IMG/VR virus record: IMGVR_UViG_3300050030_000129
Coordinates: 1-33,680 of that record
DNA length: 33,680 bases
From: a virus
Reading direction: 5' to 3' (one strand)
Part shown: positions 10,127 to 33,680 of the stretch, in pieces
Layout: every line of letters begins with the position of its first letter
How positions within the stretch are numbered: the first letter of the stretch is position 1
Program-made: the position numbers and the translations under genes
Notes under the pieces: generated by a model
What the model saw: the letters and a program-made list of their open reading frames with translations, nothing else
Told to the model about the DNA's origin: nothing
The model's database searches: none

Positions 10127-13100
10127 CTAGGGGGTAGGGTTGGTAAGGATTGGGACCAACTGCTTCGTCTTCACGAGTGTGCGAATCTTACTGACCGCGC
10201 TATCAATCAACTTCTGCTTCTGCTCATCGGATGACAACGCATATATGGGGGTCGCGAGTAACCTGTTGAGTATAGCTGTCACCTGACCACCGCTCTCGCT
10301 CTCTAATGCGTTGAGTTGCTTGGGGGTCAACGTGACCTGCTTACCAGCAAGCGATTGCTTGTTGCCCATCTTCGATGGTGTCGCGGATAGCCCGGCGATG
10401 TAGAGTCGAGTCAGCTCGTTCACAAGGGGATTCTTGACTGGCGCCTTGGAGTTGAATATGTCGATGAACGGGGCTAAGCCGGTTGTTTCGTTCGGCAGAG
10501 TTTGACCGAGTACGTTGCGCCTCGGGGGAAGCAGATTTCGTAGCCCGGGAAGGCCGGACTGGACGGTCTCAGAAACGCTGTTAGCCTCCCTTTGAAGCGG
10601 GTCGAACGACTTGCCCAGGTCTTTTAGAATGTTCGGCACGAAGGAGCCGAGAGAACTGCCGACATACCGTGATGGTTTGTACCTGACAGGATCGGTGAGC
10701 ACGTTCAATGGCTGCTGTACGCCGGCCAGGAATGTCTGGTTCGTGAATACCTTGCTGAGATAGGCGGCAGTGTTCAGTAGCTTCTCCGCAGAAGATGCCT
10801 TGTCGGTCCCTTGCCTGCCTAGCTCCCCGCCGGCAAGAGCAATGATCGCCTCTGGACCGACGGAATTAATGGACCGCCATTTGCCACCAATCAGTACTGA
10901 ATTGGCCTGCTTCCCCTCAAGCTCCCACTGGTCCCGCTCTTTTTGGTCCTTCGGTTCTCCAGTGAGAAGCCCTTTCTTGGCAAGCGCAGCACCGGCGGCC
11001 AATATCCCGGTACCCACCAGCCCACGTCCCACCTGTTGCGAGGCGGCGCGTTGCAGGGCCGGATTAGTAGAGTTACCGAAAAGCACCTTTACATCGTTCA
11101 CGAGCCCTTGAGTAAGACCGATAGGCGAATAGGCCGCTATCTCTCCGGCAATGGATGACGGCACGCCGGTGAAGGGGGCGACGAACTCGGAAATGAACTT
11201 GGTCGCCTCGTTCTTGTTGAGGGATCGCTTTGCAGCCGACGCCAATTCCCGCAATACATTGTCATTCTGAAAGACCGATCGTTGGGCATCCCCGACGGCC
11301 GTCTTCATCATCTGATCGGTCGGCGCCTTGACCAGCGATTCGACGAACGCTGCATCCCCCTGCCTTCCGGCATTGATGGCAGCAGCCCCCGCCTGGTCAT
11401 AGAGAGAGCGCCCGAGGGCATAATTGTATGGGATCTTGTCCGATGCAGAGAGTGAACGGTAAACAAAGTCCGTACCCTTCTTCAGAGCTTGTTGAACAGG
11501 GGTATTGTCCCAGGTGACATGACGCACGTCGAATTTCTCCAGCGTCCTCTCCGGATCATACCCACGAGTCATTATGTCCTTGGCTGCCTGGACTCCCTTT
11601 TTCCCATATTCACCCGATTGCAAGCTGAAGGTCGTTGTCCGCTCTCCCGTCTTCGCGCCCAACATTATATCGTTGGCAACGGCGAATGGGTCCTTTACGA
11701 TCTCCGCCGCTCCATGGATTGCATTACCGAGGACGTTGCGCTCATGGGTTCGCAGTGAGGTGAGCAGCCCGGCCTTCCAGACGGTGATCGCTTTGTCTCC
11801 GACACTCGAAGGGATGAGATTGTGGATCTCCTCCATCAGATCGTTGGTGGCGATATTCCTCTCGCGCCCTTCGGCCATCTTCTGCACCTTCTCAGCGCGG
11901 GTAAAGAGACTCTGTACCTGGGTGTCGGTGATGCTGAGCGGTTTGTCGGGGTGGATCTTGTTGTATGAGTTGACATTCGATTGCGCGAACTTCAACGCTC
12001 CACCAGGGGTATCCTTTGCGTAGTTGGAAAATGCTTGGACCGCGCGTCCGAACTCAGTACCTGATTCTGCCATCGACTGTGTGAGTGCCGCTGCCTTCTG
12101 CGTCTGTCCCGTAGTTGCATAGTGATTCAATAATTCATTCCCAACCTGAACATGAACGTCACTGGTTGGGTTGATAGCAAGTTGTTCCGCGAGTGCTGGA
12201 TCTTGAAAGATCAAGTCGCGCGCAGCCTTGGTGAGCTCACCCTTCGCCTTCGGCACATACGTCCCGGCTACAACAGCCTTGAGTTGTTCTGGGGTACTCG
12301 CTGACTCCTTAACGTGAGTGATGAAGCCGCGTTCTGCGGGTTGGACACCCTTGAGCCTGTCGGCGACACCCTTGACAGTTTCTGGTCCCCGTGCTAGTGG
12401 TTCTGTATATGAAACACTCTGTTGTGCTGTTGGAACTTCTGAGGATGGTACTCCTTGGGACCGTGGGGACGCTCCTGCTGGTGGGGCTCCTGCTTGGAGT
12501 GGCGGTTCTATTTGGCGGCCCGGTATAGCCGCGGGCGCTGGAACGTCTCCGACGTAGGTTCCTGTATCCTCTGCCAAAGCGATTGGAGATTTCTTGTTCA
12601 TCCTCTGTGCCACTACGCCGAGAAGCGCCGAAAGTGCAGCACCGGTCGCGGCTCCCGTCCCAGCTCCGATGAGGCCGCTCTTGGCGATATCGCCCAGAGA
12701 CTTGTTCTTCTGAAGCGCGCCGGATGTACCGAATAACGCCCCATAGAGTCCGCCCGACTTCGCGCCGGCGAGGGCTGTCTTTCCAATGCCGAGCTTTTGC
12801 GCTCCTCTTGCCAGTTGTGCGCCTTTCGCGAACGACGCCAGTTCAGCCGCGGAACCAAGCGCCTGACCGCCGATCTTCTTCAGTCCCTCCCCGGTTGACG
12901 ACACTGAACCCGCCTCAGCGAGGATGTCTTTGAAGTTGCCACCTTCACGCTTGATGTCTTCTGTGAGACCAAGAAGAACGGCCCTGAGCCGGTCATGTGC
13001 GGGGTCGTCTTCCGGAGTGTCCTTGAGACGACGAATAAGCTCACTCTGCTGTGCGATGAGAGCCGGAAGATTGCCGCCCTCCACCTGTCGGCGCACGTTC

Positions 13101-13357
13101 GGATCAGTGTGGTAAGCGATGGCCTCGCCTATGGTCTTTCCTGCGGTGTTGACGAGGTTCTGGGTGTTCTTGGTGAAGAAGTCTAAAATCCCTCGGCCGA
13201 CACTGACGGCCGCCTGGGGGGCCTCCTGCAACACCTGTGTGAATCCAACACGAGGAGCCGACGCGCTAGACATGGGGCCACTAGGCGAAGCAGACTCCGG
13301 AACCGGCGCGGCCGTCGCCTGTTTGCCCGGACCGTATTTGTCCCAGTTATAACCCAT
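10127..13357 (-). CDS. 1076-aa probable internal virion / DNA-ejection protein
   Basis: This is the largest gene in the window. The N-terminal 120 residues are polar with helices (VSVGRGILDFFTKNTQNLV). Residues about 195-250 are Gly/Ala-rich and zipper-like (SGLIGAGTGAATGAALSALLG). A Pro-rich linker follows near residues 270-310, then long helical domains including WKAGLLTSLRTHERNVLGN, characteristic of very large phage structural proteins. A second apolar segment is GLVGTGILAAGAALAKKGLL at about residue 800. Membrane-active Gly zippers inside a large helical protein fit the ejection proteins that short-tailed phages place inside the head and inject. No enzyme motif was recognised. The position among tail genes supports a virion role; the specific assignment is inference. 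Confidence 0.6.
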   Translation of the reverse strand: MGYNWDKYGPGKQATAAPVPESASPSGPMSSASAPRVGFTQVLQEAPQAAVSVGRGILDFFTKNTQNLVNTAGKTIGEAIAYHTDPNVRRQVEGGNLPALIAQQSELIRRLKDTPEDDPAHDRLRAVLLGLTEDIKREGGNFKDILAEAGSVSSTGEGLKKIGGQALGSAAELASFAKGAQLARGAQKLGIGKTALAGAKSGGLYGALFGTSGALQKNKSLGDIAKSGLIGAGTGAATGAALSALLGVVAQRMNKKSPIALAEDTGTYVGDVPAPAAIPGRQIEPPLQAGAPPAGASPRSQGVPSSEVPTAQQSVSYTEPLARGPETVKGVADRLKGVQPAERGFITHVKESASTPEQLKAVVAGTYVPKAKGELTKAARDLIFQDPALAEQLAINPTSDVHVQVGNELLNHYATTGQTQKAAALTQSMAESGTEFGRAVQAFSNYAKDTPGGALKFAQSNVNSYNKIHPDKPLSITDTQVQSLFTRAEKVQKMAEGRERNIATNDLMEEIHNLIPSSVGDKAITVWKAGLLTSLRTHERNVLGNAIHGAAEIVKDPFAVANDIMLGAKTGERTTTFSLQSGEYGKKGVQAAKDIMTRGYDPERTLEKFDVRHVTWDNTPVQQALKKGTDFVYRSLSASDKIPYNYALGRSLYDQAGAAAINAGRQGDAAFVESLVKAPTDQMMKTAVGDAQRSVFQNDNVLRELASAAKRSLNKNEATKFISEFVAPFTGVPSSIAGEIAAYSPIGLTQGLVNDVKVLFGNSTNPALQRAASQQVGRGLVGTGILAAGAALAKKGLLTGEPKDQKERDQWELEGKQANSVLIGGKWRSINSVGPEAIIALAGGELGRQGTDKASSAEKLLNTAAYLSKVFTNQTFLAGVQQPLNVLTDPVRYKPSRYVGSSLGSFVPNILKDLGKSFDPLQREANSVSETVQSGLPGLRNLLPPRRNVLGQTLPNETTGLAPFIDIFNSKAPVKNPLVNELTRLYIAGLSATPSKMGNKQSLAGKQVTLTPKQLNALESESGGQVTAILNRLLATPIYALSSDEQKQKLIDSAVSKIRTLVKTKQLVPILTNPTP

Positions 13358-28057: not shown

Positions 28058-28807
28058 CTAGCTGAGGATCACCTCGCGGAACAGTGCGCTCAAGGCGAGC
28101 GTACTGTCCATTTGAGCCCGGGGTGATCTACTTTTCGTCACCTCAGTGAATGCGTTGTAGAGGGACCACACGACCCGTGGCGCGAATTCGGGATACTTCG
28201 GCCGGTCGTACGCTTCGATTACCCGGGGCAATGACGAAGCGGGCAGGATATCCCTGCGGACGGATTCGACCAGCAAGTGATCGGCGGCCGCCACGTCCAG
28301 CGCCAATGTCTTCATCCGTCGGATCTCGTCGGCATGACGAGAGTTGAGCCCCGCCACTGACGAGAGCATCCGGTAGATCATCTCCGGCAGATCCCGGAAG
28401 ACGTGAAGGGTGTGCTTGCGGGACACCTCCGCCTCCCCGCTGAACGCGAGGTTATCGCAGCAGAAGACTCGGCTGCCGGCGCAGAGATTGACGCTGAAGC
28501 TCTTGTCGTAGCTGTTGCGCAACCCGATGGCCACGCAGTACTCGCCGTCCCCCGATGCCGCCTGACAGGACAGGACACCGAACAGCTGGGCGCCGTCGCG
28601 GGCCAAGGCGTAGGACTCGTCCATGACCTGAAGACCGAACCTAGGTAGGTGCAGCCGCACCTCTTCCACCAGTCGGGGGTGAGGCACGGGAATATAACTC
28701 CCGTCCTCGATGGGAACCGGAACCGCCCGTATGTCGGCTTCGGTCGCTATCCACCCGCCCCTGTGGGCAATGAGCTGCCCCTGGGCGGCCTCGTTCCATT
28801 CATTCAT
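28058..28807 (-). CDS. DUF932-like protein
   Basis: The 249-aa protein has the central motif GLRNSYDKSFSVNLCAGSRVFCCDNLAFSGE followed by RKHT. This matches DUF932 proteins of phages and plasmids, in which SxDxS(M/F/)xx(G/A)xRVxC(x)N is the best conserved region. The C-terminal half is helical and ends in the ordered RAQMDSTLALSALFREVIL. The biochemical function of the family is not established; it is a marker of plasmids, phages and integrative elements. GGAGGG precedes the ATG, a conventional SD. It is the last gene of a transcript that includes the RadC-like gene. Confidence 0.72.
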   Translation of the reverse strand: MNEWNEAAQGQLIAHRGGWIATEADIRAVPVPIEDGSYIPVPHPRLVEEVRLHLPRFGLQVMDESYALARDGAQLFGVLSCQAASGDGEYCVAIGLRNSYDKSFSVNLCAGSRVFCCDNLAFSGEAEVSRKHTLHVFRDLPEMIYRMLSSVAGLNSRHADEIRRMKTLALDVAAADHLLVESVRRDILPASSLPRVIEAYDRPKYPEFAPRVVWSLYNAFTEVTKSRSPRAQMDSTLALSALFREVILS

Positions 28808-28821
28808 CTTCCCTCCTGAGG

Positions 28822-29247
28822 CTAGAGGATTCCGGCCTCTCTGAAGCTGAAATGACTCTTGCCTCCGATGATGACGTGATCCAGTACTTCGATTCCGACG
28901 GTCTCGCCGACTCGCGCCAGCCGTTGCGTCATCTCCACATCGTCCTCGGACGGTGTAGGTTCACCCGATGGATGGTTGTGGACGAGCAGGACCGAAGCGG
29001 CCGCGTGCCGGATAGCCTCTCTGAACACCTCCCTCGGATGAACGATGCTGGAGTTCAGGCTTCCGATTGACAGGACAGTCAGCCGGTAGACCATGTGGCG
29101 AGTGTTGAGAAGCGCGACGATGAAATACTCGCGCATCTCCTTGCCCACCGCGTCCCGAACGACCGGCACCAGGTCTTGAGGCGTGCGGATCGGCCCCGGT
29201 CTGGTTCGCAGAGTCAGACTCGCATGCTCGGTGATGTAGAGCTTCAC
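28822..29247 (-). CDS. radC: RadC-like JAB/MPN-domain protein
   Basis: The 141-aa protein has the JAMM pattern: E40 in MREYFIVALLNTR, then HNHPSGEPTPSEDD (H90, H92, D103), the metal site of RadC/JAB proteases. It lacks the N-terminal UPF0758 helix-hairpin-helix half of chromosomal RadC and corresponds to the plasmid and phage single-domain type. The function of these is not settled; links with recombination and antirestriction genes are common. A GTG start is chosen because it has GGAGG four bases upstream and overlaps the stop of the preceding gene (GTGA). Confidence 0.85.
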   Translation of the reverse strand: MKLYITEHASLTLRTRPGPIRTPQDLVPVVRDAVGKEMREYFIVALLNTRHMVYRLTVLSIGSLNSSIVHPREVFREAIRHAAASVLLVHNHPSGEPTPSEDDVEMTQRLARVGETVGIEVLDHVIIGGKSHFSFREAGIL

Positions 29248-29501
29248 GATCCCTCCTTGCGCTTCCAGGCGAACGCTCTTGGCTTCTGTCCTGCGTCACC
29301 GTTGCCTCCCACGGTGCGGACGGACAACTTGCCGTTGGCATAGGACTGCTTCATGCCTTCCTCGAACAGGCGCCAGCAGTCGGCTTTCCATGCCTTGAGA
29401 AGCTCCGGGACTTGCTCGGCGGATTCGATCTTGCCGAGCTCCTCCTGAAGCCCATCGACCAGCTCGCCGAGCTTGGTCTTTTGCTCCGACAGGTAGGACA
29501 C
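29244..29501 (-). CDS. hypothetical protein, 85 aa
   Basis: The protein is largely helical (SEQKTKLGELVDGLQEELGKIESAEQVPELLKAWKADCWRLFEEG), with a basic, Gly-rich end. No family is recognised. The start is a GTG with GGGAGG seven bases upstream. The stop overlaps the radC-like start by GTGA, so the pair is co-translated. The leader contains a hairpin at 29536-29554. Confidence 0.65.
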   Translation of the reverse strand: MSYLSEQKTKLGELVDGLQEELGKIESAEQVPELLKAWKADCWRLFEEGMKQSYANGKLSVRTVGGNGDAGQKPRAFAWKRKEGS

Positions 29502-29535
29502 GGGGATACCTCCCTTCGTGTTGTGACGGTACGAT

Positions 29536-29554
29536 GAGAGCGGACATCGCTCTC
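29536..29554 (-). promoter_or_regulatory. 7-bp perfect hairpin in leader of 85-aa gene
   Basis: GAGAGCG (29536-29542) and CGCTCTC (29548-29554) form a perfect stem with a 5-nt loop, located between the candidate promoter and the SD of the gene starting at 29501. It could be an operator or a leader hairpin. Confidence 0.4.
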
Positions 29555-29561
29555 TCTGCTT

Positions 29562-29593
29562 TACATACGGGGATGGTTGGAATGATTCGTCAA
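29562..29593 (-). promoter_or_regulatory. weak candidate promoter for the radC operon
   Basis: TTGACG (29593-29588) is preceded by CCCC on the minus strand, as at the strong promoter 3598-3626. The best -10 is TATGTA (29567-29562), but the spacing is 20 bp, which is too long for a normal sigma70 promoter. The shared CCCCTTGACG context is the main reason for listing it. Confidence 0.3.
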
Positions 29594-29597
29594 GGGG

Positions 29598-29768
29598 TCA
29601 GACGATGTAGACAATCTTGCCACACCGAAAATATTGAATATGCGGTACTAACGGCCAGCCCTCAAACAGGGGCTTACCAGCATATGTCGCGATAGCAGAA
29701 CGCGCCCAATGACGCTTACAACACCTCGGGCATTTCACCAGCGACTTTCTTGGTTGCTTTGAAGTCAT
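29598..29768 (-). CDS. 56-aa zinc-binding-like mini-protein
   Basis: Translation from the ATG at 29768 gives MTSKQPRKSLVKCPRCCKRHW ... HIQYFRCGKIVYIV. CPRC near the N-terminus and RCG near the C-terminus give three or four cysteines in zinc-ribbon order. The start overlaps the stop of the YopX-like gene in an ATGA, which supports translation coupled to that gene. No specific family is recognised; a nucleic-acid or protein binding adaptor is likely. Confidence 0.6.
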   Translation of the reverse strand: MTSKQPRKSLVKCPRCCKRHWARSAIATYAGKPLFEGWPLVPHIQYFRCGKIVYIV

Positions 29769-30139
29769 TGCTCTAGTAGGTCAGCATTCTCGTAGATGTT
29801 GCCGATGATTGTTACGTAATTCTCGGCCTGTGACCTGGTTATTACTTCTGGCATATTTGCGCCCTTACCACCAATACCCCAGCGGGCGTATTTGTCGCTC
29901 CACTGCACAACAGATACGCGACCATACCTTTCCACCACGTCCCCCCCATAAATCTCTTTCCCGTTCTTGTCCTTGAGGCCGGTGTACTGCATGAGAACAA
30001 CATCATTGAGTGGTTGATACCACCCTTTGCCTGTGAGAGGATGGCGCATGTCTACGCCGTCCTTGCTGAAGTCGATTAGTTCGACCGTCATCATCGTGCC
30101 CTTTGTCTTATCCCACGCTCTGAACTTGATTGGTGTCAT
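29765..30139 (-). CDS. yopX: YopX-like phage protein
   Basis: The 124-aa protein begins IKFRAWDKTKGTMM and has VVLMQYTGLKDKNGKEIYGGDVVE in the middle, the hallmarks of the YopX family of phage proteins. It ends VTIIGNIYENADLLE, also typical. The biochemical role of the family is unknown. It is preceded by TAACCAGAACGACC, not an SD, and by a strong hairpin at 30156-30192 that separates it from the upstream gene. It looks phage-type inside a module otherwise rich in plasmid-type genes. Confidence 0.88.
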   Translation of the reverse strand: MTPIKFRAWDKTKGTMMTVELIDFSKDGVDMRHPLTGKGWYQPLNDVVLMQYTGLKDKNGKEIYGGDVVERYGRVSVVQWSDKYARWGIGGKGANMPEVITRSQAENYVTIIGNIYENADLLEQ

Positions 30140-30381: not shown

Positions 30382-30409
30382 ATGATACGCCGTTATACAA
30401 AACTGTCAA
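30382..30409 (-). promoter_or_regulatory. sigma70 promoter predicting a leaderless mRNA
   Basis: TTGACA (30409-30404) is a perfect -35. A 16-bp spacer is followed by TATCAT (30387-30382), which matches the -10 at five of six positions. The -35 overlaps the stop codon of the ATPase gene (30406-30408). The ATG begins at 30375, only six bases after the -10. Confidence 0.75.
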
Positions 30410-31890
30410 GCCCTGCGCCTCGGTGCCCTCTTCACCTTCACGTCTTCAATCTCGGCCTCTTTACGCTCCTGTTCCATCTCAGCGATGTGCTCCCTGCGGC
30501 GTTTGTAGGCGTCTCGGCAGGACTCTATCGACACCAGATTGATCCGCGCGTTCGTTTCCATGAAGGCCGCGATGTGCTCGGCTGGCACTCTCGGTGGTGG
30601 AGTGCTAAGCGGCGTCCTCAGCCAGTACGTCTTACCTTCGTCGGCGTAACAGGCCACGGCCTCCCCGACGCGCTGACTCTTGATCTGGTTCGCGTAGTGC
30701 GCCAGCTCCTCCCCTACCGACCAGTACGACGGCTCCCCTGTCGGGACAGGCACAATTCCCCACAAGCGTTCCGCCTTCTGGCGCTTGATGCGGTCGCCCC
30801 TGAGCGGGAACAGTTGCCGCGCCATTTTCTCGGCGTCTTCGTAGTCGCCCAGGCTGAACGCGATCCGCGTGCCGCAGTTGCCCATGATGGCCGACAGCAA
30901 TTTCCAGTCGATCTGGGCCCTGTTCTGGTGGAACACACAGAGGCCCAGCCCTCGCTTCTGCCGGCGGGACATGATGCGGTGAACGCAATCCGACGGGTAC
31001 TCCTGAAACTCGTCGAGGAATGTGATGTAGGTGCTGGCGCCTTCCTGCCGCTTGGCCGAATCCAGCTCGATGCGTGCCAGGAGCAGCGTCGCCAGCAGGG
31101 GCAGTTGGTCGCCGAGCCTGTCCTCCTCCAGCCGAATCAGCACGGTCTTCCCGTCGTCCATGAGCTTGGAGAAGTCCACGCACGTCTCTGTGGAAAACAT
31201 GGGGGCAAGGTAGGGGCTGCTGAGGATTTCGCTGACCTTGTTGCGAGCGCTCTCGATCCATTCCCGAAACCGCGTCTTGGCGAGCTGGGCGCGGTACACC
31301 GTCCAGAACTTCAGGGCCGGTTGCTTGGAATGGAAGGCCAACGTCTCGGCGAACCGCGGATCGAGAAACAAGTCGTCGAACTCCTGCACACTGAGGTGCT
31401 GCTCACCGAGCACGAGAAAGGCTGATCTGAAAACGTCCTCCATCCTTGCGCCCAAGGCGAACTGCTCCGGCCAGACGCGCTTGAGGGCGGCGATGAAGTA
31501 CTGGGCGGTCTCGAAGAGGCTGTAGGAGGCGTCAGGAGCTAACCAGTTGAAGGGGATGACGCCTGAGTCGTCCGTAGGGCAGAACACCGCGTAGCGGCTA
31601 CAGGCGGGCTCGTAGCGCCGACCTAGCGGCACCTTCGGGTATTTCCGGTCGGCATCGGCCACGATGAGCCGGATCAAGTGGTCTTGGGTGCTGCCTTCGA
31701 GGTCGAGGGAACAGAACGGTACTCCGAGCGCGAGGCATTGGCTCATCAGATTCTTGGCTAGGTTGGTCTTACCGGAACGGCTGGAGCCTTGGCAGTAGAC
31801 GCCGCGCTGGAGCTGGCGGTCGGTGAGTGTCAGCCTTTTCTTCCGGCGTCCGTCGTACTCAACGCCCTCCCCCAGATGCAGACTTGTCAT
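30406..31890 (-). CDS. HerA/VirD4-like ATPase (conjugative coupling-type)
   Basis: The 494-aa protein has Walker A GSSRSGKT (residues 35-42), Walker B TYITFLDEFQEY with D293/E294, and the later HQNRAQIDWKLLSAIMGNCGTRIAF, the sensor region of FtsK/HerA superfamily DNA translocases. The N-terminus lacks transmembrane segments, but two multi-pass membrane proteins are encoded just upstream, so it may dock on them as VirD4/TraG-type coupling ATPases do. The C-terminal 60 residues are charged. A DNA-pumping role in transfer, packaging or segregation is possible. The start at 31890 was chosen for GAGG seven bases upstream; it lies inside the end of the upstream gene (32-nt overlap). Confidence 0.8.
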   Translation of the reverse strand: MTSLHLGEGVEYDGRRKKRLTLTDRQLQRGVYCQGSSRSGKTNLAKNLMSQCLALGVPFCSLDLEGSTQDHLIRLIVADADRKYPKVPLGRRYEPACSRYAVFCPTDDSGVIPFNWLAPDASYSLFETAQYFIAALKRVWPEQFALGARMEDVFRSAFLVLGEQHLSVQEFDDLFLDPRFAETLAFHSKQPALKFWTVYRAQLAKTRFREWIESARNKVSEILSSPYLAPMFSTETCVDFSKLMDDGKTVLIRLEEDRLGDQLPLLATLLLARIELDSAKRQEGASTYITFLDEFQEYPSDCVHRIMSRRQKRGLGLCVFHQNRAQIDWKLLSAIMGNCGTRIAFSLGDYEDAEKMARQLFPLRGDRIKRQKAERLWGIVPVPTGEPSYWSVGEELAHYANQIKSQRVGEAVACYADEGKTYWLRTPLSTPPPRVPAEHIAAFMETNARINLVSIESCRDAYKRRREHIAEMEQERKEAEIEDVKVKRAPRRRA

Positions 31891-32242
31891 CGGGCGGCCT
31901 CGGCAGTCCGGCGTAGATCCAGAGGAACGCCCAGAGGACACCGACAATCCCGGAAGCCATGCCGGCCGTTCCGTAGCAACGGGTAATCAGGACTCCTCCG
32001 GCCTTGAGAAGGGCACAAAATCCCACTATGCCGATGACCCAGCAGGGCCAGCCGCCCCTGGTCATTGGAATGACAATCAGATGCCTCCAGAGCCAGAGCC
32101 CAATCCGTCCCAGAAGCCACAACAAGTCTTGGGACAGCATGACCGCGCCGCGAACAAGCCTGCCCTTGCCGCGCAGCATGGCCAGAACGAACAGAAGAAT
32201 GAGGGATTGAGCGATAAGGTAGTGACTGGTGTTCGCTGTCAT
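31859..32242 (-). CDS. 127-aa multi-pass membrane protein
   Basis: The protein has about four hydrophobic segments: LIAQSLILLFVLAML near the N-terminus, LWLLGRIGLWLWRHLIVIP, WPCWVIGIVGFCALLKAGGVLI, and ASGIVGVLWAFLWIYAGLP, ending in a polar tail. No family is recognised. It is co-transcribed with, and overlaps, the HerA/VirD4-like ATPase gene, which suggests a membrane anchor or channel partner for it. The start has no obvious SD. It follows the preceding gene by 18 nt. Confidence 0.65.
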   Translation of the reverse strand: MTANTSHYLIAQSLILLFVLAMLRGKGRLVRGAVMLSQDLLWLLGRIGLWLWRHLIVIPMTRGGWPCWVIGIVGFCALLKAGGVLITRCYGTAGMASGIVGVLWAFLWIYAGLPRPPDDKSASGGGR

Positions 32243-32260
32243 GCCGGTCGGATACTGCCA

Positions 32261-32617
32261 TCAGCGACGCCTTTCCGGCAAGGGCCGCGAACGTTTCGGC
32301 TTCCGGTGGAACTTCTTGAAGACCCAAACGACGACCCAGACCCAAATGCCGGCCAACAGCACGGCCACGACCGGATGGGTTTCCTTGGCCCAAACTTGAT
32401 TGGCAAGTGTGAGAAGAGCGACCGCCCCGACCAGCACGGCGAGCCAGGCGACCCAGCCGAAGACGTTGGCCGGCGCGGTCACCGACTGACGGAGGAGGAA
32501 CCGGAGACCGCCGAACACGAGGCGACTTGCCGCGCGGACGACGCCCCCGCTTCCTCCTTTCTTCGTCCCCTTCCGCAGCATCAGCAGGCCGACGGCGATG
32601 ACGGCCAGTGTCAGCAC
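32261..32617 (-). CDS. 118-aa multi-pass membrane protein
   Basis: Three hydrophobic segments are visible: the N-terminal VLTLAVIAVGLLML, FGWVAWLAVLVGAVALLTLAN, and PVVAVLLAGIWVWVVVWVFKKFH. They are followed by a very basic end (RKPKRSRPLPERRR). A GTG at 32617 is the preferred start because it overlaps the stop of the zinc-ribbon gene (GTGCTGA) with AGGG upstream; a longer frame would overlap that gene by 118 nt. Together with the 127-aa protein it may form the membrane part of the ATPase system. Confidence 0.6.
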   Translation of the reverse strand: MLTLAVIAVGLLMLRKGTKKGGSGGVVRAASRLVFGGLRFLLRQSVTAPANVFGWVAWLAVLVGAVALLTLANQVWAKETHPVVAVLLAGIWVWVVVWVFKKFHRKPKRSRPLPERRR

Positions 32618-32802
32618 CGGAAGTCCCTGTAGCCACGCTGTCCGCAGTTGAGGCAGCGGTATAAACGGCGCTGCCGGTAGTTGCTGATGGGATACTCGCC
32701 CTTTCTCTCTATGCGCGTGGAGTGACAACGGTTACAGCGCAGCACTATCCTCGGCTTGGACGGGCTGAAGAACGTCCTGGTGATCTCCTTGAAGTAACCC
32801 AT
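32611..32802 (-). CDS. 63-aa zinc-ribbon protein
   Basis: The protein has CNRCHS and CLNCGQ, 27 residues apart, a classical zinc ribbon, on a basic background (RKGEYPISNYRQRRLYR). The fold usually binds nucleic acid. It lies in the same transcript as the membrane proteins and ATPase and starts two bases after the stop of the upstream gene (TAAGCCATG), with no SD. Confidence 0.7.
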   Translation of the reverse strand: MGYFKEITRTFFSPSKPRIVLRCNRCHSTRIERKGEYPISNYRQRRLYRCLNCGQRGYRDFRC

Positions 32803-32805
32803 GGC

Positions 32806-32982
32806 TTACTTCTTGGACGCGGCGTCGAGAGCCGCTCCGATCAGGGCGATGACCGTGACGGTGCCGACGAACTCCAGAAAGCCCGAAGGGGCCTTCTCGA
32901 TACGACGGCTCTTCTCGATGCAGACGGTTCGGGGCCGCGGATGGTAGATGACCTTCCGCTCGACCAGGTACTTGTCAGGCAT
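32806..32982 (-). CDS. 58-aa single-pass membrane protein
   Basis: MPDKYLVERKVIYHPRPRTVCI is a basic N-terminal part, and LEFVGTVTVIALIGAALDAA is a C-terminal membrane segment ending ASKK. The ATG at 32982 has GGAGG five bases upstream, which sets the start; an in-frame extension further upstream lacks support. It is the first gene of the leftward membrane/ATPase transcript and lies across a 242-bp gap from the divergent plus-strand gene. Confidence 0.65.
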   Translation of the reverse strand: MPDKYLVERKVIYHPRPRTVCIEKSRRIEKAPSGFLEFVGTVTVIALIGAALDAASKK

Positions 32983-33128: not shown

Positions 33129-33209
33129 GTGAAGTGCCCGCCTCTGATCTTGGGTCAGGGGGGACACGACAAGCATTCACAGGCTATCCTCTTCTCTCGG
33201 GCACTTCAC
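33129..33209. repeat. 12-bp perfect inverted repeat, possible operator pair
   Basis: GTGAAGTGCCCG (33129-33140) recurs in inverted form as CGGGCACTTCAC (33198-33209), separated by 57 bp. The second copy ends five bases before the SD of the plus-strand gene. The pair could be two regulator-binding sites controlling the divergent genes, or could fold in RNA to hide the SD. CCATG lies next to each arm as well. Confidence 0.55.
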
Positions 33210-33224
33210 TTCATGGAGGAATCC

Positions 33225-33680
33225 ATGGAGTGGCAGGATCGACGGAGGTTCGAGAGCTGGTACCGGAAGGTCGAACGGTATGCGACAACTGTCCATGACC
33301 ACGTCAATGCTCACGTCCTTCTCAGAGGAGTCCTTATGGGACGCCTCGGAGAAACGGGTATCGGCGAGGCTCTCTACCGCGAACTCATCGCGGCGAACGG
33401 GAACGGACGAATTATCGGTAAGTCCCGTTTCTTTGAGCGCCTCGGCACGATCGACTATGACTTCTACGACGGCGAGGCAATTCTCCATGTTGCAGCCGTC
33501 GCAGTCGCCGAAAAGGACGAGCTTGGCCGATATCTGGCGGCCGACACATACCGCAAAGCACACCCGATCGCGCTGCAAATACTCGGAAAGAGGCACGCGA
33601 TTCGGGCAGTACCGGACGGAAACAAGGGCAAGACCAAGTATGTCCTGATTCCGTTTGTTCTCGAACGCTACATCAGGTAG
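33225..33680 (+). CDS. hypothetical protein, 151 aa, divergent
   Basis: This is the only convincing plus-strand gene. The ATG at 33225 has GGAGGA four bases upstream; an earlier in-frame ATG at 33213 lacks an SD. The product is basic at the N-terminus (RRRFESWYRKVERYATTVHDH), with a helical centre (GIGEALYRELIAANGNGRIIGKSRFFERLG) and a C-terminal part containing GKTKYVLIPFVLERYIR. No family is recognised. Its divergent position next to an inverted repeat is typical of a regulator, but no helix-turn-helix is evident. It ends exactly at the last base of the window. Confidence 0.6.
   Translation: MEWQDRRRFESWYRKVERYATTVHDHVNAHVLLRGVLMGRLGETGIGEALYRELIAANGNGRIIGKSRFFERLGTIDYDFYDGEAILHVAAVAVAEKDELGRYLAADTYRKAHPIALQILGKRHAIRAVPDGNKGKTKYVLIPFVLERYIR

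Follow-up and report, generated by a model that had tools for sequence, protein, structure and literature searches.

A coupling-protein-like ATPase encoded with separate small membrane proteins in an SU10-type phage: a candidate membrane-tethered DNA translocase

The cassette described here consists of five tightly packed minus-strand genes (32982-30406) in a window that spans the full length, 33,680 bases, of a linear IMG/VR record. The original prediction had placed five overlapping or nearly touching genes at 30406-32982, and all of these open reading frames were recovered on the minus strand (Table 1). A 3-nt gap separates the 58-aa gene from the zinc-ribbon-like gene, which overlaps the 118-aa gene by 7 nt when the GTG start of the latter is used. 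After a gap of 18 nt comes the 127-aa gene, overlapping the ATPase gene by 32 nt. The ATPase start was taken as the ATG at 31890 (494 aa) rather than the TTG at 31947, and the 118-aa gene most likely begins at the GTG at 32617 rather than at the TTG at 32728, which would give 155 aa. A Shine-Dalgarno-like GGGAGG precedes the 58-aa gene. Third-codon-position GC was 0.70-0.83 in the five genes compared to 0.71-0.79 in the phage's own genes, and the cassette reading frames are thus unlikely to be chance frames.

Table 1. Positions of the cassette genes and of a promoter-like match in the window
Feature	Position	Strand	Remarks
58-aa protein, basic N-terminal half and one transmembrane (TM) segment (34-52)	32806..32982	-	First cassette gene; third-position GC 0.83
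63-aa four-cysteine protein (CNRC...CLNC), zinc-ribbon-like	32611..32802	-	Two CxxC pairs
Membrane protein of ~118 aa, 2-3 TM segments, very basic C-terminus	32261..32617	-	Hydropathy
127-aa membrane protein, ~4 TM helices	31859..32242	-	3' end overlaps ATPase start
494-aa VirD4/TrwB-like P-loop ATPase	30406..31890	-	Walker A GSSRSGKT 35-42, Walker B FLDEF; profile and fold
Strong sigma-70-like promoter match TTGACA-16-TATCAT	30382..30409	-	At ATPase stop; 11/12 consensus positions; consensus match only

Hydropathy analysis gave one TM segment in the 58-aa protein, two to three in the 118-aa protein and about four in the 127-aa protein, in agreement with the two multi-pass membrane proteins and the basic-plus-membrane protein that had been predicted. 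No TM segment was found by hydropathy in the 494-aa ATPase. The 63-aa protein had been called a zinc ribbon; its two CxxC pairs fit this, but the Pfam zinc-ribbon matches were all sub-threshold (best E 0.029), so that we refer to it as zinc-ribbon-like. Profile searches gave no convincing family match for the 58-aa protein and none above cut-off for the 118-aa protein. The 127-aa protein was modeled by AlphaFold as four helices with low confidence (pTM 0.32), and no relative was found in named phages or IMG/VR. When the four small proteins and two neighbouring genes were compared by phmmer with all frames of the related loci, there were no matches. Because the promoter match lies at the ATPase stop, the downstream genes, encoding a 66-aa Cys/HTH protein and YopX, may form a transcript apart from the cassette, as far as sequence can suggest. 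DUF932, RadC and YopX genes lie downstream of the cassette (28058-30139), and several ATPase-carrying phage contigs likewise have homologues of DUF932 and YopX. Upstream, a divergent plus-strand gene of at most 183 aa (33129-33680) had no convincing family match.

The surrounding genes are those of a tailed phage of the SU10 type, with matches to the SU10 major capsid protein (1.6e-48), the SU10 portal, the SU10 adaptor and a terminase small subunit. The virion genes are of podovirus type, and the window also encodes a terminase large subunit (phrog_2, 7.6e-14; Terminase_2 in Pfam) and a large internal virion protein. This 1076-aa protein (10127-13357) has homologues in two contigs, G011 and G019, both of which carry the ATPase and Replic_Relax. 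Scans for tRNAs and Rfam families returned nothing. The record ends exactly on stop codons, that of a minus-strand gene at 1-3 and that of a plus-strand gene at 33678-33680. It therefore appears to have been cut out of a longer contig at gene boundaries, and further genes may exist beyond its ends.

To the ATPase the original prediction had assigned the motifs GSSRSGKT and FLDEFQEY, both of which are present, and a HerA/VirD4-like identity, of which the VirD4/TrwB side stood. The ATPase matched TraG-D_C (PF12696), by which TraD/TraG coupling proteins are recognised, with 26.1 bits against a cut-off of 22 (E 8.6e-6). It also matched phrog_5156 (E 5.5e-19; 9.9e-21 by genome search). A search of the PDB with its sequence gave no match, and an AlphaFold model was built with 15 homologues (pTM 0.76). 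Foldseek found TrwB of R388 (1e9s) as the best PDB match to this model (E 2.3e-10, TM 0.51/0.59), with an rmsd of 8-9 Å; Sulfolobus HerA, the Legionella coupling complex (6sz9) and HerA-type defence motors were also among the matches. The best viral match in BFVD was phage G gp156 (E 7.5e-18). With TM-scores of about 0.5-0.6 and high rmsd, the fold match gives the superfamily and the side of it, not the detail. As in coupling proteins, where an all-alpha domain occupies this place, a helical region lies between Walker A and B. Taken together, sequence profile and modeled fold give good support for a VirD4/TrwB-type coupling-protein-like motor.

Several other motors were considered. The HerA part of the predicted identity was dropped, as PF01935 was matched neither by genome search nor by hmmscan, even if Sulfolobus HerA was still a fold match. 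A HerA-NurA pair was rejected because the NurA nuclease was not among the Pfam matches of the window proteins scanned, and Zot/pI of filamentous phages because the Pfam scan of the ATPase gave no PF05707 match. The ATPase is not the phage's only packaging motor, since the phage has its own terminase. HerA-type defence systems (TdpAB, SIR2-HerA, DUF4297-HerA, Mads) were set aside after no PADLOC or Pfam effector match was found among the cassette proteins.

The window ATPase is very divergent. Its identity to the nearest relatives found was at most 27-28%, and in its tree it had the longest branch and was placed in no starred clade. Some 17 residues beyond the Walker B acids, the window ATPase has a glutamine, flanked by arginine, in place of the near-invariant arginine of the family (alignment position R311). 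We take this position to be roughly the site of the TrwB arginine finger. The ATPase activity of the window protein is thus not assured, and the neighbouring arginines might substitute for the lost residue.

Close relatives of the ATPase were found neither among the INPHARED phages nor in a first GTDB scan, and a profile scan of IMG/VR gave relatives on 17 contigs, 11 of which carry a phrog_2 terminase. Named phages in the family include SPO1 (gp27.4, followed by the Replic_Relax protein gp27.3), phage G (gp156) and Bacillus phage JL. Replic_Relax (PF13814) was present on 10 of the 17 contigs and lay beside or near the ATPase in seven (G011, G012, G016, G017, G019, G020, G021). In an eighth case, L001, a 274-aa neighbour of the ATPase falls short of the PF13814 profile, although it can be aligned with family members. 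The homologue of a B. subtilis plasmid of 24.7 kb (NZ_CP032854) is next to Replic_Relax, with ParM, TcpE and conjugal-transfer genes in the vicinity. Four phage contigs (L001:2037-7321, L028:4188-9202, L023:7956-12913, L032:1-3732) encode a pair of coupling-protein-like ATPases, which a Replic_Relax-like gene either adjoins or separates. A distinct group (L021, L024, L026) encodes ATPases of about 1000 aa, each downstream of a related protein of 171-246 aa, which in two of these contigs has two TM segments. A link to the PD-(D/E)XK nuclease fold has been made for MOBC relaxases; in alignment A6, the Replic_Relax proteins of L022, L031, L023, L028, L032, L029, L034, L009 and L001 mostly share PD...E-x-D/E-R followed by Lys, a pattern reminiscent of these nucleases.

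As had been predicted, no relaxase or mating-channel gene was visible: relaxases (PF13814, PF03432) and PF19044 gave no match in the 33.7-kb trimmed record that was searched. Neither VirB4 over cut-off nor a PF03432 (MobA/VirD2-type) relaxase was found in the window and 18 related phage records (19 in total). The predicted membrane DNA-translocation or secretion unit was consequently narrowed. A translocase-type ATPase with dedicated membrane genes does occur in a phage, but secretion goes beyond the evidence from these 19 records.

The frequent pairing of ATPase and Replic_Relax in related phages does raise mobilisation, in which a plasmid-like prophage would be moved by conjugation. A Replic_Relax/MobC-type relaxase would be encoded beyond the trimmed ends of the record, and a co-resident plasmid would provide the channel, as for CloDF13 MobB/MobC. 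PF13814 has been treated as the MobC relaxase superfamily (PMC5357655), G011 also carries ParA, and in tyroviruses a type IV secretion protein, Replic_Relax and ParM occur in regions that resemble plasmids (PMC9703825). In CloDF13-type MOBC1 elements (MobB and MobC) a coupling protein likewise sits on an element without its own channel, but MobB carries its own TM domain and MobC/Replic_Relax is not in the window record. Against mobilisation, the window gave no match to a relaxase, Replic_Relax, ParA or a tyrosine integrase, no convincing oriT-like repeat stood out, and homologues occur in SPO1 and phage G. We consider this explanation unlikely.

A second GTDB scan, with four phage homologues as query, yielded 80 kept loci, mostly from Patescibacteria. 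In many of these bacteria (L060-L139) the orphan VirD4-like ATPase stands behind a gene for a 400-500-aa protein that often has a TM segment at its N-terminus, and this partner had no Pfam match in the one example scanned. The ATPase homologues are often preceded by a one-TM gene. A survey of Patescibacteria reported 5,713 VirD4 homologues, few of them near virB4, and its authors leave exaptation open (PMC12102498). We count the location of these genes, mostly away from virB4, in favour of an exaptation reading. The Patescibacterial proteins share the family of the window ATPase; in contrast to it they are cellular genes, and their 400-500-aa partner was compared with the 118- and 127-aa proteins by size and TM count alone.

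A TM segment in the ATPase N-terminus or in the next upstream gene was detected by script in 8 of the 17 contigs, compared to 19-23% of other genes (p ~0.01-0.03), and adding two contigs read by eye (G002, G021) raised the count to 10 of 17. The test is a weak one, and the linkage gives modest support for membrane association of the ATPases. A partial parallel to the window cassette was found in L001, where a protein with two CxxC pairs and two TM segments is encoded shortly upstream of the ATPase. As the membrane and four-cysteine proteins of the window have no detectable relatives, it is gene order that suggests a role as tether.

The nearest relative found, G001, has structural genes syntenic with the window and a major capsid protein that is 72% identical. 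There was no ATPase match in the G001 record, which is a fragment, and the window proteins from 28822 rightwards had no match there, so that an insertion site of the cassette is not definable. The lack of a match makes the cassette a probable accessory element, although the comparison was with a fragment.

An accessory cassette would suit a superinfection-exclusion device, or one directed against plasmids or phages, in which a membrane-bound translocase blocks or mishandles incoming DNA. HerA-type motors act in defence, the PDB fold matches include TdpAB, SIR2-HerA, DUF4297-HerA and DndH, and the ATPase gave a weak Mads8 match (1.1e-10). However, the PADLOC match is a general superfamily match that the L001 ATPases also give, the best fold matches are conjugative coupling proteins, and the cassette has no nuclease, SIR2 or other effector partner. 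Such a device appears decidedly unlikely.

The podovirus-type virion genes with their large internal virion protein, whose homologues occur in the ATPase-carrying G011 and G019, raise another explanation, namely that the cassette helps to pull in the phage's own genome after partial ejection. A comparable role in DNA injection was suggested by the authors for the FtsK-like protein of podophage Pony (PMC3853050), while replication or concatemer resolution was suggested for the motor of phage AP-20-A (PMC13299392); both are hypotheses about related or similar phage motors. The gene would, however, have to be expressed before it could be of use, and there is no indication of the end from which the genome enters. 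G001 shares the virion type without an ATPase match, and the ATPase family is also present in the myovirus SPO1. We regard second-step internalisation as very unlikely.

The explanation that we favour, at a little short of an even chance, is that the five genes encode a coupling-protein-like DNA translocase that is tethered to the membrane and acts on phage DNA inside the infected cell. We infer that the separate TM proteins tether the ATPase and that the ATPase forms hexamers. The small membrane proteins would supply, in trans, the anchor that is missing from the ATPase, which would hexamerise at the inner membrane, on its cytoplasmic side, and pump double-stranded DNA. The substrate would most likely be the phage's own genome in the infected cell, with the pump either finishing genome entry or serving to tether, move or segregate DNA that is being replicated. 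Its origin would be a mobilisation or coupling module of a plasmid, now no longer attached to a mating channel. The homologue in SPO1 counts for such an in-cell pump, because conjugation would be an odd function there, whereas the finding that only about half of the related contigs show a linked TM gene counts against it.

A comparison with known systems showed where the cassette departs from them. The window ATPase resembles VirD4/TrwB coupling proteins in TraG-D_C over cut-off, the TrwB fold, Walker A and B and the all-alpha-like helical region. In contrast, those proteins usually, but not universally, carry an N-terminal TM domain in the same chain, where the window ATPase has none and is preceded by separate TM genes. 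They also work with a cognate relaxase and a type IV secretion channel, neither of which was found in the window's 33.7-kb record, and they hold the near-invariant arginine that is glutamine here. Separate accessory subunits around a coupling ATPase are known from Legionella DotL-DotM-DotN (PDB match 6sz9), which serves as an analogy only, with no sequence relation shown for the accessory proteins. The orphan phage ATPases of phrog_5156 share the family of the window ATPase and its occurrence in tailed phages. SPO1 gp27.4, phage G gp156 and the JL protein are, however, chains of 800-900 aa with a long N-terminal extension, whereas the window ATPase is short and accompanied by small membrane and four-cysteine genes. 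Next to SPO1 gp27.4 stands Replic_Relax, and phage G gp156 is preceded by the VirB4-like gp155; adjacent Replic_Relax is frequent but not universal in the phrog_5156 group, and the window lacks PF13814.

It had been asked whether the ATPase is a standard family member fully described in phages. Phage homologues are indeed on record (SPO1, phage G and many contigs), and coupling-protein-like ATPases in phages were thus known already. Yet we found no experiment or tested function for any phage homologue, and no description of a coupling complex split into small membrane, four-cysteine and motor subunits. The separate membrane and four-cysteine genes and the extreme divergence of the window ATPase set the cassette apart from those homologues.

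More broadly, although this is less likely than not, tailed phages may have repeatedly taken over conjugative coupling complexes and, leaving relaxase and channel behind, turned them into a DNA pump at the inner membrane that serves the phage genome; the separate small membrane, four-cysteine and motor subunits seen here would then be a minimal coupling complex. That coupling-protein-like ATPases occur in many tailed phages, SPO1 included, raises the question of what phages use a conjugation pump for. In this cassette the motor, the membrane parts and the four-cysteine protein are separate, small and co-encoded, which opens that question to co-expression and knock-out, and the cassette bears on the exchange of DNA-transfer machinery between plasmids and phages.
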